From Fluviirhizobium alvei (GTDB taxonomy: Bacteria > Pseudomonadota > Alphaproteobacteria > Rhizobiales > Rhizobiaceae): a DNA stretch of 64,000 nt. Under the pieces are notes generated by a model. The model had not been told where the DNA came from and ran no database searches. It saw nothing but the letters and a program-made list of their open reading frames with translations. This document shows, piece by piece, positions 1 through 61,083 of this stretch; position 1 is the first letter of the stretch; every line of letters starts with the position of its first letter. Where the stretch lies: positions 434,001 to 498,000 of the forward strand of contig NZ_JAUOZU010000006.1 in the NCBI RefSeq assembly GCF_030551875.1, written 5' to 3'. The translations under genes were made by a program, and so were the position numbers.

Positions 1-238
1 GGAGACTTGTGTCAGCATCCTTGCAGCCGCGCGCATTTCCTATGATCGAGCCCTGATCGAAAGCGCGCCATCACCGGAGACGGTAACCGCCGACTATTTC
101 AACAGAAAGGCCAAGGCGGGTGCCATTGCCATTGGAGGTGGCATGCCACAGCCCTCGAGTTTGTCCGTTGCCGAGACCTGGAAAACCGCCATGGAGCGGG
201 CAAACGCCCGTTTCGAAACCTCGAAAATCAAAATCTGA
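1..238 (+). CDS. Unknown protein, C-terminal 78 residues only
   Basis: An open frame enters from the left edge (codons start at position 2) and stops with TGA at 236-238. The visible tail includes FNRKAKAGAIAIGGG and ends in a lysine-rich ISKIKI-like stretch. I do not recognise a family. The next gene starts 20 bases later behind a good ribosome-binding site, so the two probably share a transcript. The tail is compatible with a phage or island structural protein, but nothing in it proves that. Confidence 0.5.
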   Translation, partial: ETCVSILAAARISYDRALIESAPSPETVTADYFNRKAKAGAIAIGGGMPQPSSLSVAETWKTAMERANARFETSKIKI

Positions 239-257
239 TCCACGCCAGGAGGCGCAC

Positions 258-1370
258 GTGAAAGCTCCATCCAAAAAATCTCTTGCCGGTGACATCGAAG
301 AAGAAGTCTCCATTTTGCGTGACCGCCTGGTTGATCAAGAGCGCCGGCATGCTGCTGCACTCGAGGCGCTCGAGAGCGGCCGGCAGGCCCGCCGCGCGGT
401 CCTGACCAAAAACCCGAGCGCGATCGAGGCGGCAACCGCCAAGGTTCGAGCGCTGCAGCTTGATGCAGAAGACGCCGGCAGCCTCGCACAAGACTACCGC
501 GACGAGCTCGAGGCTGCAGAACTCCGCCTTGCCGAAGCTGCAGGCATCGAGAAGCGGACGACAACGGCGGCGACATTCCATTCAATCGCCGAGGTCGCGG
601 AAGCCCACGCCACTGCGATTGCAGACGCTATCGCCGGCCTGATGGCTGTCCGGAAATCTCTCCTCGCCGCGATCCCGGCAGACGCCGGCCTTCTCCCTGG
701 TTACCATTCGCACCGGCCAGATAATCGAAAGGGCGACTCCAGAGCGCCTCTGTCGGGTCGCGAACTGGTTGATGCGGTCATTGCCGAAGGTCTTTACCAC
801 TTCGCCCCCGAGATGTTCGACGAAGAGAGTGGCGGTTTTGGTCGACGTTACGCGCTGGCCAAGCTGATGGATCTGAATAGCGTCATGCCTTGCTATGTCG
901 GCCCCGTGGCGCCAGGTTTAGCCCCCGCCGAGGCATTGAAGGTGCTACTGATCAAGCCGGCCAAGGAGCGCGCGCGCCAGATCCTCGCCGGCGAGGTTGA
1001 GGCAATTGCTGGGCAGATCATTCGGATCGATCAGGCAAGGCCGCAAGATCGCGCCAGGCTGCAGATCGTGGCAACCAAGCCCCTGAAGTTTGTCACACCT
1101 GAGCGAGACGGCTTCCGTATCTGCGAAATTGAGGAAGGCGAGCAGGCGGCGATTATCGAGCCGATTGCCCGGCTGGCGATTGCCAAGCGAGCCGCCATCG
1201 AAGTCAATACGCCGGCGGGTCAGCTTTTTCTGAAAAAGCTCGAGAAGCGGAAAGAGCTGGGCCAAGAGCAACCGCCTGCTGATGTTGTCGATCTGGGCGA
1301 TCCCATGGGCGCCATGGATCCGGCGAACGACGACGAGATTGCCGAGGAAGTGACGAGGGCAATCGGATGA
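258..1370 (+). CDS. Unknown 370-residue protein with coiled-coil N-terminus
   Basis: The start chosen is GTG at 258, preceded by AGGAGGCGC. The frame is open further upstream, but that part overlaps the preceding gene. Roughly the first 150 residues are rich in Ala, Glu and Arg with heptad-like spacing, suggesting a coiled coil. The middle contains ELVDAVIAEGLYHF and a GGFGRRYALAKLMD stretch. The C-terminus is acidic. There is no signal peptide or membrane segment. The family is not recognised. The stop overlaps the next start (ATGA), so the two are translationally coupled. The style and setting suit a phage or island scaffold-type or DNA-associated protein, which is inference only. Confidence 0.6.
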   Translation: MKAPSKKSLAGDIEEEVSILRDRLVDQERRHAAALEALESGRQARRAVLTKNPSAIEAATAKVRALQLDAEDAGSLAQDYRDELEAAELRLAEAAGIEKRTTTAATFHSIAEVAEAHATAIADAIAGLMAVRKSLLAAIPADAGLLPGYHSHRPDNRKGDSRAPLSGRELVDAVIAEGLYHFAPEMFDEESGGFGRRYALAKLMDLNSVMPCYVGPVAPGLAPAEALKVLLIKPAKERARQILAGEVEAIAGQIIRIDQARPQDRARLQIVATKPLKFVTPERDGFRICEIEEGEQAAIIEPIARLAIAKRAAIEVNTPAGQLFLKKLEKRKELGQEQPPADVVDLGDPMGAMDPANDDEIAEEVTRAIG

Positions 1371-1639
1371 CGGACCTTGTCGCAATTGTCGCCATCCGAC
1401 ATTTCTGTTTCTTCAACCGCACGCCTGCCGGCGAGATCGATCGGCGGATCGTCACTGCCGGGACTGCCGAGGCTCTACCGAGGTCCGCTGCTGACAAGGC
1501 GCTTGAGAAAGGCGTAGCGGCCCTTCAGGGAACAAAATTGGCGAAGGAGGCAGCAACGTTCAACGGTTCCACCGATCACATAACCATGGCCCACTGCGTC
1601 AATCTCGGTGATCCGCTCGGCGTCCTGGCGACAGAGTGA
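1367..1639 (+). CDS. Unknown 90-residue protein
   Basis: The ATG overlaps the stop of the preceding gene by four bases (ATGA), the usual sign of a coupled operon. The protein has a hydrophobic start and a C-terminal stretch ITMAHCVNLGDPLGVLATE. No family, signal peptide or metal-binding motif is recognised. Two strong hairpins follow within 70 bases, which fits the end of a transcription unit. Support comes from position and overlap, not from homology. Confidence 0.5.
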   Translation: MTDLVAIVAIRHFCFFNRTPAGEIDRRIVTAGTAEALPRSAADKALEKGVAALQGTKLAKEAATFNGSTDHITMAHCVNLGDPLGVLATE

Positions 1640-1643
1640 ATTG

Positions 1644-1706
1644 CCCGCCACAGCCCTTACAAATCTCGTGGCGGGAAGGGCCGGCGCCAAGGAGCGGGCG
1701 CCGGCC
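1644..1706 (+). terminator. Two tandem GC-rich hairpins closing the first operon
   Basis: The first hairpin pairs CCCGCCAC (1644-1651) with GTGGCGGG (1668-1675). The second pairs GGCCGGCGCC (1679-1688) with GGCGCCGGCC (1697-1706). Both stems are perfect. No T tract follows, so intrinsic termination is uncertain; a Rho-assisted terminator, 3'-end protection or a small structured RNA are alternatives. Confidence 0.45.
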
Positions 1707-1786
1707 AATCCGAACACACAAGCATTGAACTCGATTTAAGACCACTGGCCTGCACAGTGGGAATCTGCAAAAAACAGATTTGAAAT

Positions 1787-2698
1787 GTGATTAGCGTTTT
1801 TCGCGCAGTAGCAAACAGGGTACCTATTTTGGCAAACGTAATTGACCTCAAGGCGCATCCAACCCGCCATGGAGGGGCGGCAGCATCGCCTTTCCGCTAT
1901 CCTGGCGGTAAAGGTTTTCTGACGCCTTTTCTGAAAGATGAGCTACTTCGACGCTTTCCCAAAGGACAAGCAGGGTTTGCCGAACCGTTCTGTGGTGGTG
2001 CCGGAGCTGCGCTGAATCTCTTACTTGATGGTGACGTTAAACGGCTGTTTCTCAACGACGCCGACGTTCGTGTCTACTCTGCGTGGCGAGCAATCACAGA
2101 TGAAACAGACCGATTTATTTCTGCTATAAATAACACGGAACCAACAATCGAAAATTGGGAGACTAGCCTTCGCAAGTTACATGATACCAATGCGACCAGC
2201 TACGATTTTGAACTGGGTTTCGCAGCCTTCTTTGTAAACAGAACTAGCAGATCGGGTGTGCTCTTGGGATCGGGACCAATTGGCGGTTACGATCAAAGTG
2301 GAAAATGGAAAATAGACGCCCGATATTACAAAGATTCGCTTTCTGATAGAGTGGCAAAAATTGGCGCGCTGAGGCATTGTATTGAGACGTCAAATCTAGA
2401 TGGTCTGACATTCTGTAGGGCGCTTGAAGAACGTGAACTTCTTAGCGAAACTTTCCTTTTTGTTGATCCACCTTACGTAAAAGCCGGCAGTCGACTCTAT
2501 TTTGATGGTATGACCGTTGCTAAACATGACGCGCTCGCCCAATGGCTTGCGGCAGACGTCGCTCCGCACTGGCTCCTTACCTATGATGATCATCCGCTTG
2601 TGCGTGAAAACTATAAGAACAAAAAGGAATATAGACTTGATGTCCGCTACAGCTTAGGCCGTCGAAGAACCGAGCGTGAGCTCCTCTTTATGAGCTAA
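1787..2698 (+). CDS. D12-class DNA adenine methyltransferase
   Basis: Predicted S-adenosylmethionine-dependent N6-adenine DNA methyltransferase of the Dam/D12 class. Motifs in order: FRYPGGK (residues 36-42), the SAM-binding PFCGGAG (67-73), the NDAD acidic loop (90-93), NRTSRSG (151-157) and the catalytic DPPY (227-230). At 303 residues it is slightly longer than typical Dam. The GTG at 1787 has no clear ribosome-binding site; an in-frame TTG at 1829 would give a 289-residue protein beginning MANVIDLK. The gene runs tail to tail into the minus-strand nuclease-like gene with a four-base overlap. Its base composition is more AT-rich than the chromosome. The target sequence cannot be read from the protein. 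Its job is probably self-protection in a restriction-like module. Confidence 0.9.
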   Translation: MISVFRAVANRVPILANVIDLKAHPTRHGGAAASPFRYPGGKGFLTPFLKDELLRRFPKGQAGFAEPFCGGAGAALNLLLDGDVKRLFLNDADVRVYSAWRAITDETDRFISAINNTEPTIENWETSLRKLHDTNATSYDFELGFAAFFVNRTSRSGVLLGSGPIGGYDQSGKWKIDARYYKDSLSDRVAKIGALRHCIETSNLDGLTFCRALEERELLSETFLFVDPPYVKAGSRLYFDGMTVAKHDALAQWLAADVAPHWLLTYDDHPLVRENYKNKKEYRLDVRYSLGRRRTERELLFMS

Positions 2699-3756
2699 GA
2701 AAATTTCAACGTGTATGATGAATAGTCATCAATCAATATAGCTCCTTCGAGATCCTTCAAAAGTCTGCGCGCCTGAGCATCCAATCGGCCAAAATACCTT
2801 TTGGTCCAGTTTTGTTCGTTGCGCTTGCCAATGTTTCTCCAAATATCATCATAGGTGTAAAGCAAGCAGCTCCTTGTCGCGCATTTTTCCTTCGTCAGCG
2901 GATCGGCGTCACACGGCCGAACTAGCGCACCAAATAGAGCGCCCGGCCTGATAGCGAAAAAGTCGCCGAACCGTCTAATGGCGTCAGTGTCTACGATCTT
3001 ATGATTTATTTGTGTCGCTTGGACTGTGGCGCCCACAAGGACTAGAAAAGCGGTTCCGGGCATGCCAGGGCCACCTACATGGACTATACAGTCAACTCCG
3101 CCGTCATTAGCTGCCTTCTGTTCAGCTGACCATTGCTGATAGTTGGTCACAACCCCTGCTTCTATGCGGCGACATAGAGCGCCCAGAACACTATGAAGCT
3201 TCTGTGAGCTTCTTACTTCTGACGTTAAATGCGGGACACCCGCCTTCTCACCGGATACCGCATATCCGGCCAGCACCTCAAGAAGCTTGGGGAACCAACG
3301 GTTAAATTGAGAAATCAACGCCCCCCGCCCGACGTCCGAGTCTTCGACCTCAATAAGTCCAGCGTGCAGGGCTCTGTAAAATTGCAGGCCGAGGTAACCA
3401 CCACCGACAGAAGTGATCTCATTCCAAGGTTTCGAAGTAAGTGCATTTCCCGAAGCGTCGAGGACCAGCGGGTAATGGGCACCCAATTCAGCGATTCGGC
3501 CCTCTACTAAATTCTTCAGTCCCGAAGAGAATACTTCGAGCATCTCATCCTCTGCGAGTTGAGGCTCCGAACGATAGTCCTCGCGAGAATCCTCTGCAAC
3601 GAATGTCGAAATATACATTTCTACGGCCGCATCACGATCGATGCTGATGTCGTCAAACAGGGCGTGGCCGCGAAAAATGGCTGCCACTTCCCAAAGCGCC
3701 AACGCATCGTTATTCGCCTCGCAGCTCTCGAGTGTTTTCCATCGGAATGTGAACAT
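2695..3756 (-). CDS. Unknown protein, putative PD-(D/E)XK-like nuclease
   Basis: A 353-residue protein of no firmly recognised family. Residues 218-253 read NDGGVDC, then about 20 residues, then VGATVQATQINHK. An acidic residue in a strand (D222), a Q-containing strand (about 242-246) and a following lysine (K253) resemble a permuted PD-(D/E)XK core, but this rests on pattern and not alignment. The N-terminus includes an FRWKTLE start and the C-terminus is rich in Arg and Lys. The gene lies one base downstream of the ParB-domain gene on the same strand and overlaps the methylase tail, so the three form one compact unit. If the nuclease reading is right, this would be the restriction partner. 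A non-catalytic structural role is possible. Confidence 0.55.
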   Translation of the reverse strand: MFTFRWKTLESCEANNDALALWEVAAIFRGHALFDDISIDRDAAVEMYISTFVAEDSREDYRSEPQLAEDEMLEVFSSGLKNLVEGRIAELGAHYPLVLDASGNALTSKPWNEITSVGGGYLGLQFYRALHAGLIEVEDSDVGRGALISQFNRWFPKLLEVLAGYAVSGEKAGVPHLTSEVRSSQKLHSVLGALCRRIEAGVVTNYQQWSAEQKAANDGGVDCIVHVGGPGMPGTAFLVLVGATVQATQINHKIVDTDAIRRFGDFFAIRPGALFGALVRPCDADPLTKEKCATRSCLLYTYDDIWRNIGKRNEQNWTKRYFGRLDAQARRLLKDLEGAILIDDYSSYTLKFS

Positions 3757-3757
3757 C

Positions 3758-4843
3758 TCATTCTTCCGAGAAAGTTGATCGGATCTGCTTCAATTGCCGA
3801 TCGATACGCTTAAGGAGTGTGTCAGCCTGAAGCTTGTCGTCAGGAGGCAAATCATCGACTATCACTGTAATGTCCGATGCGGATTTTTGTACCATCGCGG
3901 CGATTTTGGCTAAATTATTGAGCCAATCTTCGGATACTATTCCGGCTACAGTCTCTGCGGCCTCGAGATTGCCCGTTGTGCGCAATTCTCTAAGCCCTTC
4001 CTGGCTTGCGAGGACTCGTTGAAGACGAGGACGATCTGTCCCCTGTGCCTTTATCACAGATTTAGAACCGTACAGATAACTTAGCAGTTCCTGTAGTTGT
4101 CCAAAATGAGACTCTGGGACCGGATTATTGATTATCAAGCTTTCGCTTAGGGGTGCTTTCGAAAAACCAATGAATGCGCGACTATCAGGATTATTAATCA
4201 ATGTATAAAGATGTGAAAACTCGATCTCATCACTCTGCACCATAAGCTTGTCGAACATGCCGAGTTCGATAGCCTGTAATACTATTTTGTAGGCAACCAA
4301 AAGCCTTATTATTAGTCCGCGGCTATCACCAAGTTGCTTCGTTAGCGACTGCATCTTTCGTTGAGGCGATAGAGCGTCCCCAAGGGATTCGTAAAAGTCT
4401 ACACCAAACTTCGCTTTCGCGAGGGATGACCAGCGCGTTGGACCATTGACGTGTTTGAAACCGATGTATCCTGACGCCTTCTCTCTGTTTTCAACCACAA
4501 TTACAGGGACAGATTCGCAAGTCGCGAGCTTGTCTGCGGCTAACTGCGGTATCTTCCGACGTGCGATCTCATTTGGTGCGAGATCGGGATCGAGCAAGAA
4601 TTTCACCGCAGCCAAACGTCGGTTGCCTTCAAGCACGACCAGTTCGCCGTCTTCTTCCGTTGCAACTAGAGGCTCATACGGTTCGTAGCCCCTTTCGGCT
4701 ATTGAATCCCAGAGTTCTTTTAAGTTCGCCTTCTCAAGCAAAATGGCGAGCGCTTCGGCCTCGCTCTGTGCAACTTCAAGGCCGAAACGAGGGTTCTTTC
4801 GATCAAGACTCAGCTGCTCGGGTTTGAAGTTGTCATATTTCAT
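3758..4843 (-). CDS. ParB N-terminal domain protein
   Basis: A 361-residue protein whose first 80 or so residues form a ParB/sulfiredoxin-like domain with the diagnostic GNRRLAAVK motif (residues 73-81). The remainder is helical, with a HVNGPTRW segment near 133-140 and a C-terminal stretch rich in charged residues. Chromosomal ParB proteins are near 300 residues and pair with ParA, which is absent here, so this is unlikely to be a segregation protein. Stand-alone ParB-domain proteins are known next to DNA modification or defence genes, where the fold can act as a nucleotide switch or nuclease. The next gene starts one base after its stop, so they are co-translated. The start ATG at 4843 is the first in frame. 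Confidence 0.75.
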   Translation of the reverse strand: MKYDNFKPEQLSLDRKNPRFGLEVAQSEAEALAILLEKANLKELWDSIAERGYEPYEPLVATEEDGELVVLEGNRRLAAVKFLLDPDLAPNEIARRKIPQLAADKLATCESVPVIVVENREKASGYIGFKHVNGPTRWSSLAKAKFGVDFYESLGDALSPQRKMQSLTKQLGDSRGLIIRLLVAYKIVLQAIELGMFDKLMVQSDEIEFSHLYTLINNPDSRAFIGFSKAPLSESLIINNPVPESHFGQLQELLSYLYGSKSVIKAQGTDRPRLQRVLASQEGLRELRTTGNLEAAETVAGIVSEDWLNNLAKIAAMVQKSASDITVIVDDLPPDDKLQADTLLKRIDRQLKQIRSTFSEE

Positions 4844-4980
4844 TTCGCAGGACCGCCCCTATCGGTGTTTGCCGGCATTCACGCCGACCAACCTAATTAT
4901 TGCATCGCCACTTTCATCACAAGCGCGCTAAGGTTCCAAAACGAGCCCTATATCTTACGCGCCAATTATTCCGGAATTCC

Positions 4981-5223
4981 TCATAGGGATTTCAACCGAA
5001 CACCCGGCCCGCCCACCGTCGTTTCACCGTCGGCAAGAAAGACGACGCCGGCCGCCTCTAGGGCACGCTCGACGGCCGCGAGATTGTTTATTGAAGGTAT
5101 ACGCCGACCTTTTTCGAAGTCTCGAACCGTGCTTTCGCTCAAGTTGGACGCTTTTGCCAACTGCGTTTGAGACCAGTCGAGAAGGCCGCGCGCGGCGCGC
5201 GATTGTTCTGGGCTAAGGGACAT
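4981..5223 (-). CDS. XRE-family transcriptional regulator
   Basis: An 80-residue protein that is almost entirely one helix-turn-helix domain of the Cro/CI (HTH_3) type: ARGLLDWSQTQLAKASNLSE then TVRDFEKGRRIPS. This size is common for regulators of restriction-modification modules and plasmid genes. It lies upstream of the ParB and nuclease genes on the same strand, with about 137 bases between, and is divergent from the small-gene operon that starts at 5340. A perfect inverted repeat (5245-5261) sits just upstream of its start and is a likely operator. It probably represses itself and one or both neighbouring units. Confidence 0.85.
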   Translation of the reverse strand: MSLSPEQSRAARGLLDWSQTQLAKASNLSESTVRDFEKGRRIPSINNLAAVERALEAAGVVFLADGETTVGGPGVRLKSL

Positions 5224-5244
5224 GGATTTCCTCTATTTCATTAT

Positions 5245-5261
5245 TTTGTGCTTACCACAAA
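5245..5261. promoter_or_regulatory. Candidate operator of the XRE regulator
   Basis: A perfect inverted repeat TTTGTG-CTTAC-CACAAA lies in the divergent intergenic region. It is 22 bases upstream of the XRE start and 10 bases upstream of a -35 box facing the other way. Position and symmetry suit a Cro/CI-type dimer site that could control both directions. Confidence 0.5.
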
Positions 5262-5270
5262 CGAAAACCG

Positions 5271-5299
5271 TTGACAAACTCAGAAATTCACGGAATATG
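5271..5299 (+). promoter_or_regulatory. Sigma-70-type promoter of the small-gene operon
   Basis: A perfect -35 hexamer TTGACA (5271-5276) is followed after 17 bases by AATATG (5294-5299), a moderate -10. The first gene of the operon starts at 5340, leaving about 35 bases of leader with a GGAG ribosome-binding site. Confidence 0.5.
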
Positions 5300-5339
5300 G
5301 GAACAGTTAACGAAAAGCGTTAAATGTGGAGCGAAGCAA

Positions 5340-5606
5340 ATGCCCAAATCGAGTACCGGCACAATAGCAGCAACCGCCACCTTCCGCGACACCTATGCCG
5401 GCGTAGTCGCCGCCATCTTGGTACCGTTCAAGACGAAGCGGAAAGGCCAGACGGTCACCCGTTATCGTTGGCAGGAAGAAGTTCGTGGCTTCGCTGCCGG
5501 TGGCTGGGCATCCCCGTTTGTGAGTACCGATCAGGCCATTGCATGCGCAAAGCGCCATGCACTGTTCAGCAACGTGCAGGCTGTGGAAACAGCGCTCGCC
5601 GCCTGA
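5340..5606 (+). CDS. Unknown 88-residue protein
   Basis: The start is placed at ATG 5340 because the frame upstream runs through the promoter and GGAG precedes this codon. The protein is basic, with a VPFKTKRKGQTVTRYRW segment, and ends in an alanine-rich helix. No family, signal peptide or membrane helix is recognised. It opens a run of six closely spaced plus-strand genes. Short basic proteins like this are common in rhizobial islands and phages, where they may bind nucleic acid; the function here is unknown. Confidence 0.6.
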   Translation: MPKSSTGTIAATATFRDTYAGVVAAILVPFKTKRKGQTVTRYRWQEEVRGFAAGGWASPFVSTDQAIACAKRHALFSNVQAVETALAA

Positions 5607-5666
5607 CCTTTCGGCGAGGGCGGTCGTCGCCCTGTTCGAAATGCCAGAACATCGAAGGAAACCACC

Positions 5667-6146
5667 ATGCCGATCGCACCGATTCCGGCCACCGCCGAAG
5701 GCTTGCCCATCAACTTGAACCGCCGCCGATTTCTTGCCGCTGCGCCGGCCGCTGCCGGCGCCTTGCTGCCCATTCCGGCACTTGCCGTCACTTCGCCGCC
5801 GGAAACACCCCAAGAAGAGCTTGATCGCGCCGTGGGCGCCCTGTTTGCCGCCATGACCCGCATTCACGGCGAGGGCGTCCGGATCATCCGCAACGGCAAC
5901 AGCGGGATCTGTGTCATGGCGCCCGATCGTCCCGAACTGTTCAATTTCACCGGTGCCGGCCTCTATGAGGTCCAGCACGAGGGTGGGCGGCCTATCTGGC
6001 GAATGGAGCGGGCGCCCGAACATGACGATCCGGCGGGCTACGGCCGGGCATTCTGGGTCACTCCTCAGTTCCGGCCAAAGGAACGAAGCCTGAAATTCGA
6101 TATCGCGCTGACCGGCAAGTTCGTTCGGTTCATCCGCGCAATCTGA
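5667..6146 (+). CDS. Unknown protein with Tat-type signal sequence
   Basis: A 159-residue protein starting at ATG 5667 behind GAAGGAAA. Residues 18-42 read as a twin-arginine-type leader: NRRRFLAAA followed by an Ala/Pro-rich hydrophobic stretch ending ALA. The consensus wants S/T-R-R-x-F-L-K; here an arginine triplet precedes FL, so Tat export is likely but not certain. The mature part contains GEGVRIIRNGNSGICVMAP and no recognised domain or cofactor site. It is the second gene of the small-gene operon. Export of a folded protein by a mobile element is worth noting. Confidence 0.65.
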   Translation: MPIAPIPATAEGLPINLNRRRFLAAAPAAAGALLPIPALAVTSPPETPQEELDRAVGALFAAMTRIHGEGVRIIRNGNSGICVMAPDRPELFNFTGAGLYEVQHEGGRPIWRMERAPEHDDPAGYGRAFWVTPQFRPKERSLKFDIALTGKFVRFIRAI

Positions 6147-6173
6147 TCAACCTCGAAAATTTGGAGAGCCGCA

Positions 6174-6452
6174 ATGCCGAAGTCACTTCAGGCAGCCGCC
6201 GAAGGCTTGCCGAAAATCATCCCGTTCCCCGCCGGTGCTGATGCCGAAGCTCGCGAGGATGTCGTTACCGATCTCGCAGCAGACATGATCCGCCTGTCGT
6301 CAGTGCTGAAGTCGCTGCTTGAGGACAGGATCCGGGACACCGGGAAGGGACCGCTAACGATCGCCCGCAAGGATGCTGCCGACGTGCAGTTCATTGCCCG
6401 CCAGGCCAGCGACACAGCGGAACGCCTACAGAAAGCATGGGAGGCTGTCTGA
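6174..6452 (+). CDS. Unknown 92-residue helical protein
   Basis: The start at ATG 6174 is preceded by TTGGAGAG. The N-terminus is Pro/Gly-containing (GLPKIIPFPAG), then come two predicted helices rich in Ala, Asp and Arg. There is no signal peptide or cysteine motif. The stop overlaps the next small gene's start (TGATG), implying translational coupling. It shares the word AEGLP near its N-terminus with the preceding Tat-leader protein, which may be chance. The family is unknown. Confidence 0.6.
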   Translation: MPKSLQAAAEGLPKIIPFPAGADAEAREDVVTDLAADMIRLSSVLKSLLEDRIRDTGKGPLTIARKDAADVQFIARQASDTAERLQKAWEAV

Positions 6453-6592
6453 TGCCCGACCTTATCCGTGATCTCGCATCGTTCGTTGTGATCGTTGCCT
6501 TTGTCGTCGGCGTTGCCGTGGTGTTGCCCGACCTTTCCGCGGCGGTCCACGGTGACCAACAGGTGATCGTCGCCGATCGCGGGGAGGGCTGA
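6452..6592 (+). CDS. 46-residue single-span membrane protein
   Basis: A short frame from ATG 6452 to TGA 6592, coupled to the preceding gene and ending three bases before the next ATG. The first half is one hydrophobic helix (LASFVVIVAFVVGVAVVLP, about residues 8-26), followed by a short polar tail ending DRGEG. The tight packing on both sides is the main support. The function is unknown; small membrane peptides in such operons can be holin-, toxin- or regulator-like. Confidence 0.5.
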   Translation: MPDLIRDLASFVVIVAFVVGVAVVLPDLSAAVHGDQQVIVADRGEG

Positions 6593-6594
6593 TC

Positions 6595-6903
6595 ATGCGC
6601 AGCGCCCCTGAACCTTGCACCAAACCCGCCCGGCCGAACCATTCCCGGAACGAGTCCGACGAGGGCTATCAGCCGGTTGTCGTTCAGCTTGCGCCCCGGT
6701 GGCGCGTGATCGTCTGCAGAGACGGTTTGCAGTGGATCCTTCAACAGCGGCTCTCCGCCACAGAAACCCTTACAAGGGCGGGTTGGCGAGGTCGGCGGTA
6801 CTTCCGAACGCGAGACGGCCTGATTGCCGCGTGTGGCAGGGCGCTTTCTGACATCGATGGTGCTGCGCTCACGGCACTGCACGCCCTTCCGGAGAGGATT
6901 TGA
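6595..6903 (+). CDS. Unknown 102-residue basic protein
   Basis: ATG 6595 is preceded by GGGGAGGG within the end of the previous gene. The protein contains VQLAPRWRVIVCRDGLQWIL, which looks like a short beta-rich segment, and RAGWRGRRYFRTRDGL, a basic patch. This resembles small island-encoded proteins of rhizobia, but I cannot name a family. The stop lies two bases before the chosen start of the next gene. Confidence 0.6.
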   Translation: MRSAPEPCTKPARPNHSRNESDEGYQPVVVQLAPRWRVIVCRDGLQWILQQRLSATETLTRAGWRGRRYFRTRDGLIAACGRALSDIDGAALTALHALPERI

Positions 6904-6905
6904 TC

Positions 6906-7322
6906 ATGCCCAACCAACCCGATCTCAATTCAACCTTTGCCGCGGCACTCTCATGCTCTGGCGACATTTTGGAGAGCAATCCCATGAACGAACCGCAAGA
7001 GCACCCGTGGGCAAAGGCAAGACGTCTTTGCAAGGAATTGTCAGATGTCCTCGCTGAGGTGGAAAACGCCTGGTACTGCGTCGTTCGCGCCGCCGGAACC
7101 GAGAACGCCCTTGCTGCAGTGGCGATGGACGACAAAGAAGCTGCGCCCGAGATACCCGTTGATCGCGTCAACAGGCTCGGGTGGGAGCTTGCCGCAGCGC
7201 TCAATGATTATGGCGATGGCGAATTCCATGCCTATGTCGTTCCGGCCAAACGTGGGGGCTATTGCGTGATGTTTGCCCATCGACCGAACCGATTGCCGGA
7301 ACCATTTCACGACAGGCTCTGA
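6906..7322 (+). CDS. Unknown 138-residue protein
   Basis: The start is ATG 6906, preceded by GGAGAGGA; a second ATG at 6984 also has a good site (GGAGAG) and would give 112 residues beginning MNEPQEHPW. The protein has an Ala/Glu-rich helical N-terminal part and ends in a beta-rich part (FHAYVVPAKRGGYCVMFAHR). No motif is recognised. It is the last gene of the operon; a perfect 12-base-pair hairpin follows at 7391-7423. Confidence 0.6.
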   Translation: MPNQPDLNSTFAAALSCSGDILESNPMNEPQEHPWAKARRLCKELSDVLAEVENAWYCVVRAAGTENALAAVAMDDKEAAPEIPVDRVNRLGWELAAALNDYGDGEFHAYVVPAKRGGYCVMFAHRPNRLPEPFHDRL

Positions 7323-7390
7323 CAGGATTTGCAGACGCCGTTGAAACCGGCGTTGCTGGGGTAATGGTGCCCCGATTGGAAAGGCAATCG

Positions 7391-7423
7391 GCGCCCACCC
7401 GGAAAGCCCCGCCGGGTGGGCGC
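7391..7423 (+). terminator. Strong hairpin after the small-gene operon
   Basis: GCGCCCACCCGG (7391-7402) pairs perfectly with CCGGGTGGGCGC (7412-7423) around a nine-base loop. No T run follows. It probably ends or attenuates the small-gene transcript before the ATPase gene, which starts at 7490. Confidence 0.45.
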
Positions 7424-7489
7424 AACTTCCGAGAAACACAGTGCTTTGAGGCCTGTTCTCTAGTAACGTTTTCTGAATTGGAGATCGCC

Positions 7490-8980
7490 ATGAATTCAAT
7501 AGAAATCGGCACGACCAATGCCGGAAATCTGGTCGCCTTGCCGCTCAAGATGGCCAATCGTCACGGCCTGGTGACAGGCTCAACCGGCACCGGAAAAACG
7601 ACCACCATGCAGGCACTTGCCGAGAACTTTTCGCGGGCCGGCGTCTCGGTTTTCTGCGCCGATATCAAGGGCGATCTGTCCGGTATCGCGGCACGCGGTG
7701 ACGATGCAAGCCCACTGGCTGCCCGGATGGCGGCCATGGGCCGGCAATTCGCCGCCGATCGGTTCCCGGTCGCCTACTGGGATCTTTTTGGCGATCACGG
7801 TCTTCCGATCCATACCAGCGTGCAGGAGATGGGTGCCGAGCTTCTGGCCCGCATGCTCAAGCTCAACGATGCTCAGGAAGGCGCATTGGCGATCGCCTTC
7901 AAGAAGTGCGAGGACGAAAAGTCGTGGATGCTTACGCTCGACGATCTGCGCTGGACGCTTCACGACATGCTCGAAAGCCGCGAGGAAGTTTGCCGCCAAT
8001 ATGGCAACATCACAGCAGCTTCGATCACGACCATACAACGAAACCTTCTGGCGCTGGAATCACAGGGCGGTGCCTTCCTGTTCGGCGAACCCCGGTTCGA
8101 TATCCTTGACTTCATCCGGAACGATGCCGCCGGTCGTGGCACGATCAATCTGCTGCATGCCGATCGCCTGATCGAGAACCCGAAGCTCTATGCCACCTTC
8201 CTGTTGTGGCTTCTCACCGAATTGTTCAGGGTTTTGCCCGAGGTCGGGGATCTCAACCGCCCCAAGCTGGTCTTCTTCTTCGATGAGGCGCATCTGCTGT
8301 TCACCGATGCGCCGAAGCAATTGATCCAGCAGATCGAGCGTCTGGTCCGCTTGGTGCGCTCGAAGGGTGTCGGCGTCTTCTTCGTCACCCAGTCGCCGGC
8401 AGATATACCGGATACCGTGCTTGCCCAGCTTGGCAGCCGGATCCAGCATGCCTTGCGCGCCTATACCCAGAAAGATCAGCGGATGGTCAGGGCCGCCGCC
8501 CAAGCCTTCCGGGAAAACCGTGGTGTTGACGTCAAGGCAGAAATCACCAAGCTTGCGGTTGGTGAGGCCCTGATATCTGTCCTCGATGAGGCCGGCATCC
8601 CGACGAAGGTGGAAAAGGTCTTGATCATTCCGCCGTCGGCCCAGGTCGGCCCGATCTCGGATATGGAGCGGCGCGCTATCATGGATGGTTCAACCGATGG
8701 CAGCGAAGTTAGCATCCATGCTAAGGAAATGCGCCAGCGCTACGGTGCCAAGCTGGCCGAGCAGGTGGCCGTCCACCAATTCATGAACCGGATGCGGCAA
8801 CAGCGCGGCCTTCCGATCGTCAAGACAGCCAGCGATTGGAAGGAAGGAGACTTCCGCCAATTCATGCCGGACTTCAGCAGTTCATATCCGCCTGCACCTC
8901 GACGCGCCACCTGGCGCGGTCTGTTCGGTTGGTCCGCTGCTCTGGCCTCTTCCGTTTTCCTGTTGTGGGTGTTGGTCTGA
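7490..8980 (+). CDS. HerA/DUF853-type ATPase with C-terminal membrane anchor
   Basis: The start is ATG 7490 behind TTGGAGATC. The 496-residue protein has a Walker A GSTGTGKT (residues 30-37), then DIKGDLSGIAARGDD, typical of DUF853 (YjgR-like) proteins, and a Walker B LVFFFDEAHLLF near 258-269, followed by VTQSPADIPDTVLAQLGSR. These place it with HerA/FtsK-type hexameric ATPases. The C-terminus ends in a single hydrophobic helix (about the last 20 residues), which is not general for the family and suggests membrane attachment. HerA-type ATPases move or process DNA and occur in defence and conjugation contexts; no nuclease partner is adjacent here. The next gene overlaps its stop (TGATG). Confidence 0.85.
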   Translation: MNSIEIGTTNAGNLVALPLKMANRHGLVTGSTGTGKTTTMQALAENFSRAGVSVFCADIKGDLSGIAARGDDASPLAARMAAMGRQFAADRFPVAYWDLFGDHGLPIHTSVQEMGAELLARMLKLNDAQEGALAIAFKKCEDEKSWMLTLDDLRWTLHDMLESREEVCRQYGNITAASITTIQRNLLALESQGGAFLFGEPRFDILDFIRNDAAGRGTINLLHADRLIENPKLYATFLLWLLTELFRVLPEVGDLNRPKLVFFFDEAHLLFTDAPKQLIQQIERLVRLVRSKGVGVFFVTQSPADIPDTVLAQLGSRIQHALRAYTQKDQRMVRAAAQAFRENRGVDVKAEITKLAVGEALISVLDEAGIPTKVEKVLIIPPSAQVGPISDMERRAIMDGSTDGSEVSIHAKEMRQRYGAKLAEQVAVHQFMNRMRQQRGLPIVKTASDWKEGDFRQFMPDFSSSYPPAPRRATWRGLFGWSAALASSVFLLWVLV

Positions 8981-9381
8981 TGGCCAAGCGAGCGAACCAT
9001 TTCACGCGCAATCATCTGCTCTACCGGCGAGGCTGGACCAAGGAGCTCATTGCCGCGCACCTGGGCGAGCCAGATGAAATCAGGCAATACCCGTGAGCAT
9101 CAACGAACAAGGTCGACGAGTTCTTTCACCGGACTCGCGTTGAAGAAATGGAACAGAGGCCCGACATCCGGGATCTGATAGCCGCGCGGGAAGCCGAGCT
9201 TTACAAATCCCGCACCGAGCGGGCGGAAGAATAGTTGCTCGACCATAAGCTAAAGATCCGGATCTCCTTTGCATCAGCATGCTTGGGCGACCTATTCGAG
9301 ACACCTCATTACCAAAAACGGATCGACCTATATGTTAAAGTGAGACCCAAGGCGAGAACAAACTCGAAGCGGTCAGAATAG
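8980..9381 (+). pseudogene. Gene broken by two in-frame stop codons
   Basis: ATG 8980 overlaps the ATPase stop. The frame reads MAKRANHFTRNHLL, then GWTKELIAAHLGEPDEIR, and hits TGA at 9094-9096. The same frame continues as a protein-like sequence (FFHRTRVEEMEQRPDIRDL) to TAG at 9232-9234 and stays open again to TAG at 9379. The layout of a short motif LGEPD followed by RVEEMEQRP matches a class of small proteins I know from rhizobial phages and islands. The two parts are therefore probably one gene carrying nonsense mutations. The 38-residue first part could still be made. Stop-codon readthrough is a less likely alternative. Confidence 0.6.
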
Positions 9382-9451
9382 ATTGATTGCTTGCCAGGTA
9401 TCTCAATCTCTGCTTGTTTTATGGGTGTCGTTCTGCCGCGAGGAGGAAGTC

Positions 9452-10648
9452 TTGCCAGAAAATGAAACGCCGGGCGGAAATTTCAAAGAACGCCTATTCG
9501 AATCAATTTTCCGCGACGGTACCCCTGATCATCGGGCAAAGCTTGCAGAACTACTGTTGGCAGCCGATACAGTAAGCCCGGAGATAGCGTTAGAGCGCCT
9601 TAGAGCCTCGACAGTACGGCGATATCCTGTTCTGCATCTAGTGCCTTGGGCGGCCCTTTTCACCGTTGTTGGCGGATTGGCCACCGCTGGCATTACGGGG
9701 ACGCTTGAGATCATGAAGGACCTCAGCAAGCAAAATCACGACGAGCGCATGGCAGACATTTCTCGGCAGTCTTCTGTTTTTTCTCAGTTGATGGTAGTCG
9801 ATCCGGCCACCCTTCTGGTTGACGGCGACGAGCGCGCAAGTCAGGATGACCTGAAAAATGAAAGAAAAGCGCGTATATGCATGGCTGCTATCTTTGGAAT
9901 AGTGAAAATTCCTGATTATGTTCTCGGCATTCAGGCGCAAAATACCGGAAGTTATGCTGATGAACTGTCAAAATTCTTGAATGAAAAGTATGAATGCGAT
10001 AAGAATTTCGTGTCATCTTCATTTCCTGTGATAGTTTCCAGGCCCAACCCGCTCCGGAGGCCTGTTTGCGATGCGAAGGCTAATGTAGCCCCTCCGCCCC
10101 TCGATTATCCGCAGACCCCGGAGTTACCGGCGATCGCAAAGCAAATGCTGAAGTTCGCTATTGATGAATTCAATAAAGGCGTAGACGAGGTTTGTGAGCC
10201 AGAGGAAGTAGCAAAATATTTCGGTGTAACCAACATTGAAGGTGTGCCACAGGAGACACCTTGGTCAGCCGCATTTGTTTCGTGGGTTGTAAAGTCCGCA
10301 GGCAACCCAGCAAATCTTCAGTTATCTGCTTTAAATCAAGGGATTTGGGAATCGGCGTTACGACAAGGGTTGGTGATAGAGCCAACACAGACCTTGCCAG
10401 GCGACATAATCATATTTCTCAGTAGCGGTAGTTTCAACAATGGGATCAACGCTGACGACATTCGTAAAGGGCCGAGCGATAGGCGATGGACGAGTACCTC
10501 AGGCATCGTGCTAAAGGTTGATGGCGATAAAGTGTCTTTCATCTCTGGAAACATAAGCAATCAAGTGGGAATCAGCGAACGAAGCCTATCGGACCTTTTG
10601 CTAGTTGGGGTTATCCGCGTGCGTGAAAAACAAACCCATGATCGTTAG
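9452..10648 (+). CDS. Membrane-anchored amidase-like (DUF2272/CHAP-like) protein
   Basis: The start is TTG 9452, preceded by AGGAGG five bases upstream; the frame is open further upstream but lacks such a site. The 398-residue protein has a soluble N-terminus, one membrane helix at about residues 63-85, a linker with a Pro-rich stretch (APPPLDYPQTPELP), and a C-terminal domain. The domain layout, PWSAAFVSWVVKSAG (about 271-285), PGDIIIF (316-322) and SGIVLK then SGN (349-367), follows the CHAP/DUF2272-type peptidoglycan amidase fold. Where active relatives often have Cys (WCAAF) there is Ser, and the usual His of the HVG motif is also Ser, so it may be inactive. The gene is AT-richer than its neighbours. 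Confidence 0.6.
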   Translation: MPENETPGGNFKERLFESIFRDGTPDHRAKLAELLLAADTVSPEIALERLRASTVRRYPVLHLVPWAALFTVVGGLATAGITGTLEIMKDLSKQNHDERMADISRQSSVFSQLMVVDPATLLVDGDERASQDDLKNERKARICMAAIFGIVKIPDYVLGIQAQNTGSYADELSKFLNEKYECDKNFVSSSFPVIVSRPNPLRRPVCDAKANVAPPPLDYPQTPELPAIAKQMLKFAIDEFNKGVDEVCEPEEVAKYFGVTNIEGVPQETPWSAAFVSWVVKSAGNPANLQLSALNQGIWESALRQGLVIEPTQTLPGDIIIFLSSGSFNNGINADDIRKGPSDRRWTSTSGIVLKVDGDKVSFISGNISNQVGISERSLSDLLLVGVIRVREKQTHDR

Positions 10649-11041
10649 CCACCGGGGCACTATCTGAGATCTAAGCATTTTGTGGGCCGATCTAAAGTAA
10701 TCCGGCCTTTGATCGACTAAGCGAGCGCACCTCGAACGAGGCCAGCGGCTGTAATAGGCAAACCTGCAGAGACGCCCTACAGCGTGCGCGGCTGCCGAGA
10801 TGAGGCGGCATTCGTCCGAGGTACTCAACGCGCCGGTACACTCCGCAGACGTGGCCTGGTGGTTTTGATTACCTTTTGGCTTGCGCGTCTTGTCGGAAAC
10901 CCTGATGAAACAAGCTTTGGTCGCCGTTCTCGACGGACGGCAATGGGAGAAAGCTGAAGGAGACCGGCGGAATACAAGTTTATTTCTGGGTTTCTGCTGA
11001 TCTGCTATTCTCTTCACCGATGCTTCGCGGGGAGTTTTGCT
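10649..11041. other. Intergenic region, no gene seen
   Basis: About 390 bases with no reading frame I can support. The minus-strand frame open across it lacks protein-like features. A GGGGAG ribosome-binding site at 11029-11034 belongs to the next gene. Confidence 0.5.
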
Positions 11042-11308
11042 TTGAATGAGTTCCGGGAATTCATGCTGCTGATGGGCTTGAACGGCAAGCAGGTGGCCAA
11101 GGCCGGCGAATTGATTGGCATGGGCCGCCCCACGGCCCTCATGTGTTACAGCGGCGAGCGCCGATTGACCAAGACCGAGCGGTTGGCAATCACCGCGGTC
11201 GTCTCGCAAGCTTCGCCCTGGTCACCGGATACCCATTCCCAGATCGCTGCCGCGGGAAAGGTTATGGCAGCGGTCAAGGATGTATTGCGGGCCGCCGGGC
11301 CGGCATAG
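11042..11308 (+). CDS. Small putative HTH protein
   Basis: An 88-residue protein from TTG 11042, with GGGGAG seven bases upstream. Residues 10-50 (GLNGKQVAKAGELIGMGRPT onward, then GERRLTKTERLAI) resemble a Cro/CI-like helix-turn-helix in which the recognition helix follows GKQVAKA. It is short, acidic to neutral, and has no membrane helix. It may regulate the island's phage-like genes downstream, but 750 bases of apparently non-coding DNA separate them. The assignment rests on pattern only. Confidence 0.5.
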   Translation: MNEFREFMLLMGLNGKQVAKAGELIGMGRPTALMCYSGERRLTKTERLAITAVVSQASPWSPDTHSQIAAAGKVMAAVKDVLRAAGPA

Positions 11309-12063
11309 TTCCCGGTCCAAACTGAAGCGGTTTGCGGAAGTCAAAATCGATCCGGCCGGGGATGGTTCCATATTGCTGCCCTCGATCGGCTGCGCCCCAT
11401 CGAAATCGGTTTTGGCATTCCGTCCTGATCAACGACCAAACGACATTCACCATTCAATTCGTCGGCGGCCATTGCCCTATTGCCGGCATGGTGCACCCGA
11501 TGGCGCCCTATGGCGCCCAGCACTGTTCCGGGCCCACGCGCCCCGCCGCGCTCACCGTCAACCAATCAGCCCTCACCGTCGAGTTTCGCCCATGCCGATC
11601 ACGCCCGCGCGCCTCGACCCACACGACAGCGCAGGCCAGAGCGCGGAGAGGGTGTGTGCCAAGAGAAGCCCGCGTGGCGTGCCTTCATTGCGAGGTGGGT
11701 CGAACATCATCAAACTCGCGTAACGCGCGCTGGTGGCCCATTCTGGGCGGGCCAGGGCCGTTTAGGGACCGTACCAGCCCCCGAGCCCCCGCGGGGCGCA
11801 GCACCCCGGATAGTCGCGCACCTTATGTTTTCTAGGGGGAGGTCTTCCCCGCCATGCCGGCCCCTGAATTCATTTGGCTTTCGGCGCTCAAAGACCTGGG
11901 GCCAGGCCAAACGGGGGTTCCAAATCGAGGGAGTTCCGCTTTTTTCGACTTCGAAGGCCGAAGCTGGTGTTCATTGAGCGCGCAACGACTTCCATATGCG
12001 TCCAGTTTTGTTGGTTTCTCGCGCCTGATAAACTTCGCTCTGTGATCGGTTCAGGGGAAAAGA
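11309..12063. other. Long GC-rich region without a supported gene
   Basis: About 750 bases before the terminase gene. All frames are long only because stop codons are rare in GC-rich DNA; the translations are rich in Arg, Pro and Ser with no domain, and several overlap one another on the same strand. A short GGGGA/TCCCC hairpin lies at 11836-11850. This could hold control signals or a decayed gene. Confidence 0.45.
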
Positions 12064-12597
12064 ATGGCGAGACAGTCGAAACCAGCAGGTGATTGGATCC
12101 CGGATTATTGCAGCAAGGCTGATTTGGCCGTGCTGTTCGGAGTTTCAATCCGCACCATCTCTGATCTTGATCAGCGAGGCTTGATCAGTCGGGCTGAGAA
12201 GCGGGGGCTGTATCTCACAAAGCCTTCGATCGAAGCCTATATCGGAAGCCTTCGGAAGACGGCAGCGGGTCGGACAGAAGAGACCAAGAGCAAGCTTACC
12301 GATGAACGCCTCGCAACGGAGCGGGTTACCCGGCAGATATCCGAGATGAAACTTGCCGAGTTGCGCGGTGAGACGTTGACGCTCGACGAAGTTTCAGAGG
12401 CATGGGCAAAAATTGCCTCCTTCATGAAAACGGCCGTGTTGGCGCTGCCGTCCAAGGCACGTGCACAGATCCCGCATCTGACGGCCCATGATGCCGAAAC
12501 CCTGAAATCATTGGTCAAGGATGTTCTGAACGATCTCGCCGACGAGATCGAGGATGCGGGCGGCGTTGGCGCCAGCCCTGACAAAATCAAATCGTAA
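12064..12597 (+). CDS. Phage terminase small subunit (Nu1-like)
   Basis: A 177-residue protein. The N-terminal part (about residues 14-50) is a winged helix-turn-helix: YCSKADLAVLFGVSIRTISD. It is followed by a basic linker and the family pattern LTDERLATERVTRQISEMKL then ELRGETLTLDEVSEAW, and FMKTAVLALPSKARAQIPHL. This matches lambda Nu1-type terminase small subunits, which bind the packaging site and recruit the large ATPase. No large subunit, portal or capsid gene follows. Instead, a tape-measure-like gene starts 12 bases later. It is probably a relic or a regulator within a phage-derived satellite. Confidence 0.78.
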   Translation: MARQSKPAGDWIPDYCSKADLAVLFGVSIRTISDLDQRGLISRAEKRGLYLTKPSIEAYIGSLRKTAAGRTEETKSKLTDERLATERVTRQISEMKLAELRGETLTLDEVSEAWAKIASFMKTAVLALPSKARAQIPHLTAHDAETLKSLVKDVLNDLADEIEDAGGVGASPDKIKS

Positions 12598-12609
12598 GAG
12601 GGCAAGACC

Positions 12610-14880: not shown

Positions 14881-14991
14881 ACAGCTGAGCGACGAATTGT
14901 GATCTCCCAGCTGGCAAAAACAGTCCTTGATCCCTACTTGGACTGTATGCAACCATATCGGGAGCGATGTGAGCTAGAGAAGCCAGCAGTT

Positions 14992-15792
14992 ATGAAAAAG
15001 ACGCCATTCATCATTGTCAGCATCACAATCTTGATTTGTTGCATTTGGATCACGTTGGTGATCATAGCTCTCCAAAGTAAGGGGGGGCTGAACGCTTTGT
15101 ACGCGCTCAATCTCAACGAGATAGGGGATGCAGCGTCAGGATTCTTTTCTTCGCTTGCGTTTATTGGGCTCATTGCGACGGTCTTCATTCAAGGCTTCGA
15201 AATCAGGAGGCAAATTAAAGAAAAAGAACGAGAACGATACTCGAGTGCCAAGCGTATAGTGGGCGTGGCTATGTGGAAAATAACTTCAATGTTTAGTGAT
15301 TTCTCCAATGAGCTACAATATACGGAACCGCTCTACGCCAAATCGGCAGAAAAACCTCGTAATAATACATGGACACTCATATCTGAGAGAAGTTGGGTGC
15401 CTGCGCCGGTAACCTTTGATGCATCTGAACGCGTTATGCTGATGGCGGTAAATGACGCAGAATTTCTTCGCGATGTTATGAGTTTGGAAAAGATGCATCA
15501 CCGATATATTCAGACACGCAAGAACTATGATGAATTGAGAATTTCTCTTATGAATAGAAGTGAAATAAATAGTGTAAATGATGATTTGAAGGTATTCATA
15601 AGGCCATCTAAAGGAATAATTGAATACGATGTAATAAGGGCGAACTTAACCCTGAAGGATTTGCGTGATGAAACCCATGTTGCATATGAGACTGCCAAAA
15701 GTGTAATTAAAAAATTTGAGGTTTTTTCTCGCGAATATTTCCCGGAAGCTGTTGTGAAAATGCCTACAAAGTCATGGAAAGATCACGTCTAA
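14992..15792 (+). CDS. Two-helix membrane protein of unknown function
   Basis: The start is placed at ATG 14992 (MKKTPFIIV), giving 266 residues. The frame is open upstream to GTG 14899, but that part is polar and has no good ribosome-binding site. There are two membrane helices at about residues 6-27 and 50-70. The second carries GDAASGFFSSLAFIGLIATV, then a QIKEKERERY coiled segment and a large cytosolic domain. This layout (GD-x-x-x-GFF...LAF helix followed by a coiled coil) is widespread in uncharacterised bacterial membrane proteins. The gene is markedly AT-rich compared with its neighbours, suggesting separate transfer. It lies next to an IS66 remnant. Confidence 0.7.
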   Translation: MKKTPFIIVSITILICCIWITLVIIALQSKGGLNALYALNLNEIGDAASGFFSSLAFIGLIATVFIQGFEIRRQIKEKERERYSSAKRIVGVAMWKITSMFSDFSNELQYTEPLYAKSAEKPRNNTWTLISERSWVPAPVTFDASERVMLMAVNDAEFLRDVMSLEKMHHRYIQTRKNYDELRISLMNRSEINSVNDDLKVFIRPSKGIIEYDVIRANLTLKDLRDETHVAYETAKSVIKKFEVFSREYFPEAVVKMPTKSWKDHV

Positions 15793-16046
15793 TATATAGC
15801 ACGTCAAATTTATTCGGGTTCATATCCGCGCGATTTGAAGTAATTGGCGCTTTTGTGAGGATCGAACAGCTTCTATAGAGACGGTATTCGCCTGACACTG
15901 CCGCGGTTTGAAGCGGGTTCAGGCGGCGCGTCTGTGCCGTGGAGACGAGAACGCCGGAGACCGTCGAATAACTCGAATAACTGCGGCACGATGACTCACG
16001 ACACCAGAATCCGAAGGCAACGTGGACCGGAATTTGGTAGTTTCCA

Positions 16047-17367: not shown

Positions 17368-17723
17368 CGCTGACCGCCCCGAAAGGGGCAATGACATCAC
17401 GAATCCGGCCCGAGATCAGAGCCAAATGCCGCCAAAAGCCGTCAAGCCGCGCCGCTGATCACAAATTCAGCCGTAATTCGAGGTCTCCAGCTGATCTGAA
17501 TAGCCTAGTCGAATCAATCAGGTCGGAAGTCGCTCTAATCGCTGTAGGATGAAAATTCAGTGGCAGGTTGCCTTGGCTATTCCGGAAATCATGCCTTTCG
17601 CATACTGTCCCAGTATGGGTCCGATAATCTGCTCGGCAAGTTTCGATTGAAAAGGCAGGAATTCTCTGCAACATGACAGTGACAAACATAAAAAATATGT
17701 AATATTTCCAATCATAGGGCGAA
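17368..17723. other. Region between IS66 remnant and attachment fragment
   Basis: About 350 bases without a gene. It starts with a small hairpin (GCCCC-GAAA-GGGGC at 17376-17389) just after the transposase stop, likely part of the old insertion sequence. A minus-strand frame crossing the tRNA fragment is an artefact. Confidence 0.5.
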
Positions 17724-17725
17724 GC

Positions 17726-17769
17726 CTGCAAATCCTTGCACCCCGGTTCGATTCCGGGCGAGGCCTCCA
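17726..17769 (+). repeat. Attachment site: 3' fragment of tRNA-Cys
   Basis: The sequence from CTGCAAA (a GCA anticodon loop) through the T arm CCCGG-TTCGATT-CCGGG to the acceptor 3' strand CGAGGCC, discriminator T and CCA (17767-17769) is the 3' half of a tRNA-Cys. The 5' half is absent: the bases before the loop (GAAGC) do not pair with TCCTT, and no GGCCTCG acceptor strand precedes. This is the expected product of tyrosine-recombinase integration into a tRNA gene. It marks the island's right end. Confidence 0.8.
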
Positions 17770-17874
17770 AAATTTCTCCCTCTGATGTCGAAGCGGTTCC
17801 TGCTATACGCTTAAGCTAAAATAGAGATATTAGAGATAGCGTTGGTCTGTCTTGTCGCTGGAATATCGTCGTTC

Positions 17875-31615: not shown

Positions 31616-31727
31616 GAAATCTTCCCCGAATGTCAATTCGGGAAAGATATGACTAATGCATTAAAACCGATCGAATGAGCGTGGTAAACCGAAGCCTAAC
31701 ATCCTCATTTGAAACGGATTTGCCGGT

Positions 31728-61007: not shown

Positions 61008-61083
61008 TGGTGAGAGCGATGGGATTCGAACCCATGACCTACTGATTAAAAGTCAGTTGCTCTACCGGCTGAGCTACGCTCTC
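61008..61083 (-). tRNA. tRNA-Lys (anticodon UUU)
   Basis: On the minus strand the acceptor stem GAGAGCG (61083-61077) pairs with CGCTCTC (61018-61012), the anticodon loop is CTTTTAA, the T arm carries GTTCGAATC, and CCA is encoded (61010-61008). All four arms fold. The gene is intact. Its 3' end faces the AT-rich patch. Confidence 0.97.

Follow-up and report, generated by a model that had tools for sequence, protein, structure and literature searches.

Three genes at the locus

The window analysed here is a 64,000-nucleotide stretch of the Fluviirhizobium alvei genome (assembly GCF_030551875.1, contig NZ_JAUOZU010000006.1, positions 434,001 to 498,000), and near its left end lies a compact cassette of three genes encoding a DNA methylase, a nuclease-like protein that we call X, and a ParB-like protein. 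All three open reading frames (ORFs) are open and complete. The methylase gene (1787..2698, plus strand) meets the X gene (2695..3756, minus strand) tail to tail with a four-base overlap (2695–2698). The ParB-like gene (3758..4843, minus strand) precedes X with a spacing of one base (3757). Both features of this layout had been read from the sequence of the window in an original prediction and were confirmed from the ORFs.

The methylase (303 amino acids) was correctly recognized from the start as a D12-class DNA adenine methyltransferase. It contains DPPY and PFCGGAG motifs and matches Pfam family PF02086 (E 2e-11) and the PDB entry 7m6b (E 3e-13). Its best match among the PADLOC models is PD-Lambda-5_B (PDLC04018; E 2.6e-81), a component of the described system PD-lambda-5, with MTase_II at E 4e-55. 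Judging from the starts of the two nearest relatives, the TTG codon at 1829 is the likelier start of the protein.

The ParB domain assigned to the product of 3758–4843 (361 amino acids) is real though faint. The protein has no match in Pfam, reaches NCBIfam parB_part at E 3e-4, under the curated cut-off, and is covered by PADLOC model PD-Lambda-5_A (PDLC04007) over residues 1–144 (E 2e-30). The family phrog_3694 covers the whole protein (E 5e-66), and a profile of the ParB-like family finds ParB chains in the PDB (best E 6e-6). Its NPR (17–19) and EGNRRLxA (72–79) motifs are invariant in 11 of 11 aligned ParB-like proteins, and it further comprises a helix-turn-helix (HTH)-like region and a C-terminal part. 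We presume that the protein acts in DNA recognition or as a nucleoside triphosphate (NTP) switch; the switch role is proposed because of the analogy with GmrSD, BrxU and SspE, discussed below. The suggested lack of a ParA partner was borne out, as none was found among the seven window proteins scanned with Pfam or by eye in the ORFs of positions 1–12000.

The three cassette genes have a GC content of 48.2% (methylase), 51.2% (X) and 48.1% (ParB-like gene), whereas the flanks have about 60% and the window as a whole 57.9%. An XRE/HTH_3 regulator gene (4981..5223, minus strand; 80 amino acids; Pfam HTH_3, E 3e-12) lies upstream of the ParB-like gene, as stated originally. Its GC content of 58.8% is flank-like, and the statement that all four genes are more AT-rich than the host is thus valid for the methylase, X and ParB-like genes and not for the regulator. 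By tblastn, the XRE protein of the window has only weak matches at other loci carrying X (33%, E 0.008; in L020, L026 and L027), in a comparison that covered relatives of this protein and left unrelated regulators at those loci outside the search. Because of its flank-like GC content and the weak matches elsewhere, we left the XRE gene out of the cassette. The view of it as the controller of the cassette was not upheld, and we likewise rejected it as a C-protein.

Recurrence of the cassette and homology of protein X

The set of X loci comprises 56 members (the window, L005–L007, L018–L066 and L068–L070), which form 39 clusters at 90% identity; the duplicates L001–L004 and L067 were excluded. 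A ParB-like gene lies directly upstream of X on the same strand in 56/56 loci, a count that is non-independent for the 9 of the 56 found via the ParB-like protein; 46 of the 55 non-window loci were found via X and not via ParB. The unit includes a methylase at 55 of the 56 loci, located within 200 bp of X at 53. These 53 enzymes comprise 42 5-methylcytosine (m5C), 8 D12 and 3 N4/N6 methylases, and in 31 of the 39 clusters the genes of X and the methylase converge. At L006, the D12 methylase adjoins the ParB-like gene and not X. At positions 6001–8139 of L027, a Citexvirus-type viral contig, about 0.9 kb of other DNA splits X; the ParB-like gene is retained, as is the m5C methylase, which lies beyond the insertion.

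The same gene order with a convergent methylase occurs in an alphaproteobacterial metagenome-assembled genome (MAG), where the ParB-like protein is 63% and X 45–46% identical to those of the window, and in a Phreatobacter MAG. More distant cassettes are found in the phages Wphi, 12474III and D14A and in a Vibrio campbellii replicon. Profiles of X identified 40 viral contigs with the cassette, a viral set dominated by P2-like m5C cassettes. When 398 genomes from the phylum were searched with profiles, X was detected in 5, including the window's own, and all 5 carry a ParB-like gene and a methylase. A single-protein search of 385 genomes of the class found X in 2, one of them the window's own, and the ParB-like protein in 14, and the ParB-like protein had no match in any of the other 8 genomes of the genus, some of which are incomplete. 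The recurrence of this three-gene order in bacteria, phages and a Vibrio replicon exceeds chance. The counts contradict the possibility, raised with the original prediction, that the three genes rarely occur together, and support the methylase, the nuclease-like protein and the ParB-type protein as a co-inherited unit.

The cassette methylases cover three chemistries, N6-methyladenine (m6A, D12), m5C and N4/N6, and ten partner methylases scanned with Pfam belong to PF02086, PF00145 or PF01555. When mapped onto a tree of X from the 39 clusters, the methylase label requires 6 changes, the least possible number being 3; the label of L006, with its methylase on the ParB side, was set to D12 by hand. 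Several long branches of this tree, including L007 and L005, are uncertain in position; on its well supported branches, the m5C label must change at least 3 times and the D12 label at least twice. We regard the persistence of a methylase of one chemistry or another as the strongest argument that the ParB–X pair would read methyl marks.

Within the m5C cassettes (24 of 26 clusters, with L007 and L070 omitted), distances between ParB-like proteins correlate with those between X proteins (Spearman 0.65–0.85 across protein parts), whereas the distances of either protein correlate with those of the methylase at 0.08–0.36. The methylase is far more conserved, with mean distances of 0.26–0.33 versus 0.51–0.68 for ParB and X. 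Its recognition region is among the conserved parts (mean distance 0.33), from which we predict that diverged P2-type units have a common target. The region borders in this comparison were set by hand, and the pairs are non-independent and were compared without tree control.

Protein X (353 amino acids) consists of a helical N-terminal domain and a C-terminal domain that profile comparison identifies as Mrr-like PD-(D/E)XK. As a single sequence, it had no hit at E up to 1 in NCBIfam, PADLOC or PHROGs; its sole Pfam hit, to Npa1 (E 0.048), fell below the cut-off and was taken as noise. The family phrog_3984 matches 26 of 27 aligned X members, the window member being the one not matched. When the profile of the C-terminal half of X was compared with a profile of 20 Mrr_cat domains, a probability of 91.6, an E-value of 8e-7 and a score of 43.8 over 111 columns were obtained (42.5 in the reverse direction). 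In control comparisons, 40 column shuffles scored at most 14.6 and the ParB and methylase profiles 13–15. The X profile also weakly matched the restriction endonuclease of PDB entry 4f0p, which we take to be MspJI, at E 0.044.

Six residues (E23, R87, P96, Y121, D218 and D222) are invariant across all 39 X clusters, with E23 to Y121 in the helical N-terminal domain and D218 and D222 in the C-terminal one, to which K253 also belongs. K253 is kept in 38 of the 39; the exception, L006, is the sole cluster with the canonical QxK lysine two residues after Q. Such a swap is expected if K253 replaces the catalytic lysine. A profile of X built without the window clade finds the X of the window at E 7e-6 in a search of all ORFs of the loci. 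In hhalign, the window clade and the rest of the family score 86.0, compared with at most 19.4 for 119 of 120 shuffles; the remaining shuffle scored 133.6 on four aligned columns and was treated as a numerical fault, and the same outlier was present in a set of 40 shuffles. These profile comparisons place the window clade within the X family.

Genomic setting

The cassette is AT-rich cargo of an integrative island of 23,805 bp at tRNA-Cys, which spans window positions 1–17771 and C43:427967–434000. The island is bounded at both ends by a 46-bp direct repeat of the tRNA-Cys 3′ end, with the right copy at 17726..17771 (plus strand) and the left copy at C43:427967–428012, outside the window. A tyrosine integrase (phrog_1, E 9e-65) is encoded beside the left repeat.

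A complete-looking ParB–X–m5C methylase cassette is located in the Wphi prophage of E. coli W (NC_017664.1, 4335184–4338222). The genes of the Wphi unit are orf98, orf96 and mth. There and in phage 12474III, the cassette and two small genes lie between the portal and replication-endonuclease genes. This interval is reported as a P2 defence hotspot by Vassallo et al. 2022 (PMC9519451), and E. coli W is called restriction-minus in its genome paper and is designated a safe laboratory strain (PMC3032704). The cassette occurs in 139 of 5,426 complete E. coli genomes; by identity bands, the Wphi type accounts for 103 of these and the 12474III type for 36.

Several other genes of the window were noted. 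The island also encodes a HerA-type ATPase (7262–8980; Pfam HerA_C, E 2e-168), with less similar DNA elsewhere in the genome and genus. Near its right border, a gene at 14899–15792 with membrane-like segments by eye lies in an AT-rich stretch (43.6% GC at 15–16 kb) and has no match in PHROGs; it is possibly a second cargo or defence gene. Beyond the island, a tRNA-Lys gene (61008–61083) beside an AT-rich stretch (59–61 kb, 46–48% GC) possibly marks another insertion site. The gene at 29735–31636, with HExxHxxGxxH and glycine-rich repeat motifs, presumably encodes a serralysin-like zinc protease.

Proposed function and comparison with known systems

From these sequence features, we consider it probable that the cassette is a ParB-dependent restriction-modification-like defence unit, a new variant related to PD-lambda-5. 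The methylase would mark the DNA of the carrier at its target sequence. The ParB-like protein, with its nucleotide-switch domain and HTH, would be the recognition or switch subunit, distinguishing marked from unmarked DNA and bringing in or activating X. As an Mrr-like PD-(D/E)XK nuclease, X would then cut unmarked incoming DNA. The analysis shows the structure of the genes, their joint inheritance, the exchange of methylases of three chemistries, the homology of the X family to nucleases, with catalytic-type residues conserved, and the occurrence of the cassette on mobile elements and in the P2 defence hotspot. We infer a block of cleavage by methylation, target recognition and NTP use by the ParB-like protein, DNA cutting by X and phage defence as the final effect.

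A number of observations weigh against this proposal. The literature yielded no functional data on any cassette member. One X locus, L022 on a Persicobacter plasmid, has no methylase by three profiles in 10.6 kb, and the methylase calls at L005 and L007 rest on fragments at the locus edge (101 and 72 amino acids). For X itself, the nuclease assignment of the original prediction was sustained by the Mrr-like family profile and not by structure: in the AlphaFold2 (AF2) model, the nuclease region has a predicted local distance difference test (pLDDT) score of about 40–74, and neither Foldseek nor VIA-align gave a credible nuclease match. Single members of the X family match Mrr_cat weakly (2 of 27, best E 0.019), as does the window clade of three members alone (probability 11, E 0.003). 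The D...Q...K pattern described originally stands for D222 and K253, which are conserved across the family, and falls for its glutamine. The residue chosen, Q246, occupies a separate alignment column with Q in 14 of the 39 clusters; the family Q column is residue 242, which is Q in 36 of the 39 and G in the window clade. The window copy of X could be altered or inactive, because G242 replaces this Q and the clade matches Mrr_cat weakly. In addition, the idea that the ParB-like protein senses unmethylated DNA lacks support, since its HTH region does not track the recognition region of the methylase; the two gave no sign of co-variation across the 24 m5C clusters (partial correlation −0.02).

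Three other explanations were weighed. It is unlikely that the cassette is simply a PD-lambda-5 system whose effector half has become a separate gene. The best PADLOC matches of the ParB-like protein and the methylase are indeed PD-Lambda-5_A and PD-Lambda-5_B, and the N-domains of the cassette ParB-like protein and PD-Lambda-5_A agree in profile comparison with a score of 198. However, 24 PD-Lambda-5_A models, which span 428–613 positions, match the ParB-like protein within residues 1–177 of 361 only. The 11 PD-Lambda-5_A-like proteins compared have C-terminal halves without a match to X, to Mrr or to the ParB C-terminus (scores 13–20), and no X was present in the examined flanks of the 11 loci encoding them (L008–L017 and L071). 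X as the detached C-terminus of PD-Lambda-5_A was accordingly rejected by profile comparison.

We give still less credence to a selfish addiction module of modification plus stability, in which loss of the cassette would kill the cell through cleavage of its undermethylated chromosome and so retain the island or prophage, with phage defence as a secondary effect. Such a module, whose chemistry would be the same as that of restriction, would fit the presence of the cassette on an integrative island in this genome and in phages elsewhere. Residence in the P2 defence hotspot is more suggestive of an arms race, as is the faster divergence of ParB and X relative to the m5C methylase. A role in maintenance or regulation of the element seems very improbable. 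The ParB-like protein would then partition or regulate the element, the methylase would shield it from host restriction and X would be a processing enzyme, in keeping with the ParB homology and with the lone methylases that phages often carry. Against this, no ParA was recognized among the neighbours scanned, X stands beside the ParB-like gene in 56/56 loci chosen for X, and the methylase type is exchanged while the ParB–X pair is kept. Carriers of the cassette also include an integrated island and P2-like prophages, elements that integrate and can do without partition.

Within the restriction-like reading that we prefer, we raise one more far-reaching idea, tentatively and with more doubt than confidence: the cassette may represent a separate kind of restriction, in which a ParB-type clamp, and not the nuclease, would read the target. 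The clamp would load at unmethylated sites, spread or switch on NTP and license the Mrr-like nuclease. The core of ParB and methylase would form a platform for exchangeable effectors (X or the C-terminal domain of PD-lambda-5), with methylase chemistry exchangeable among m6A, m5C and N4/N6. If its proposed function holds, the cassette would constitute a restriction type with a ParB-like recognition switch separate from both nuclease and methylase, and PD-lambda-5 would belong to a broader family whose effectors are exchangeable. It would also explain the triplets annotated as ‘ParB N-terminal domain / hypothetical / DNA cytosine methyltransferase’ in P2-like prophages. Since E. coli W carries an apparently complete copy, the proposed function is testable at once.

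The cassette shares features with several known systems. As in Type II restriction-modification, a methylase lies beside a presumed restriction nuclease, but the cassette has an extra ParB-like subunit in every unit seen and combines one nuclease family with three methylase chemistries. Mrr and MspJI are stand-alone enzymes that cut modified DNA. These PD-(D/E)XK endonucleases (PF04471) share with X the GDGGxD...Q motif and profile similarity, and X differs from them in its moved lysine (K253), its long helical N-domain and its linkage to a methylase and a ParB-like protein. In GmrSD, BrxU and SspE (DUF262 and HNH), a nucleotide-switch domain of the ParB superfamily gates the nuclease by DNA modification, according to the parts of the sources considered here (PMC10952713, PMC12373910). 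The cassette may work in a similar way, by analogy. It differs from these proteins in having no DGQQR or HNH, a separate nuclease of another family and its own methylase; in Pfam, neither the ParB-like protein nor X matched DUF262 (PF03235) or HNH/DUF1524 at E up to 1.

The claim that the unit is a restriction-like system of undescribed type can be kept only in part. No description of the three-gene unit was found in the open-licence literature, surveyed mostly at the level of listings, and the word ParB does not occur in the main text of a 2025 restriction-modification review (PMC12707154) or in that of the study of phage defence hotspots by Rousset et al. (PMC9122126). Its ParB N-domain and methylase, on the other hand, match the described PD-lambda-5. 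PD-lambda-5, which has been described as a compact restriction-plus-abortive-infection system, is prophage-borne according to its authors (PMC9519451). In the PADLOC models, its component A has a ParB-like N-terminal domain and its component B is a D12-type methylase, as in the cassette of the window. The two differ in that PD-lambda-5 has two components in PADLOC, with component A carrying its own C-terminal domain, whereas the cassette has the separate X gene, and in that component B is D12-type while cassette methylases are also m5C or N4/N6.

A further relative is the PADLOC candidate PDC-M38, whose ParB-like domain matches residues 38–348 of the ParB-like protein (E 3e-13). In four full-length members (L072–L075), this domain is fused to an ATPase and not to X; we had considered PDC-M38A as a ParB–X fusion and rejected this. 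From its motifs, the ATPase looks like the OLD/ABC type. The PDC-M38A loci L072 and L075 have a further gene of 290–299 amino acids downstream. Across PD-lambda-5, PDC-M38A and the X cassettes, this group of ParB-like domains thus combines with at least three kinds of partner.

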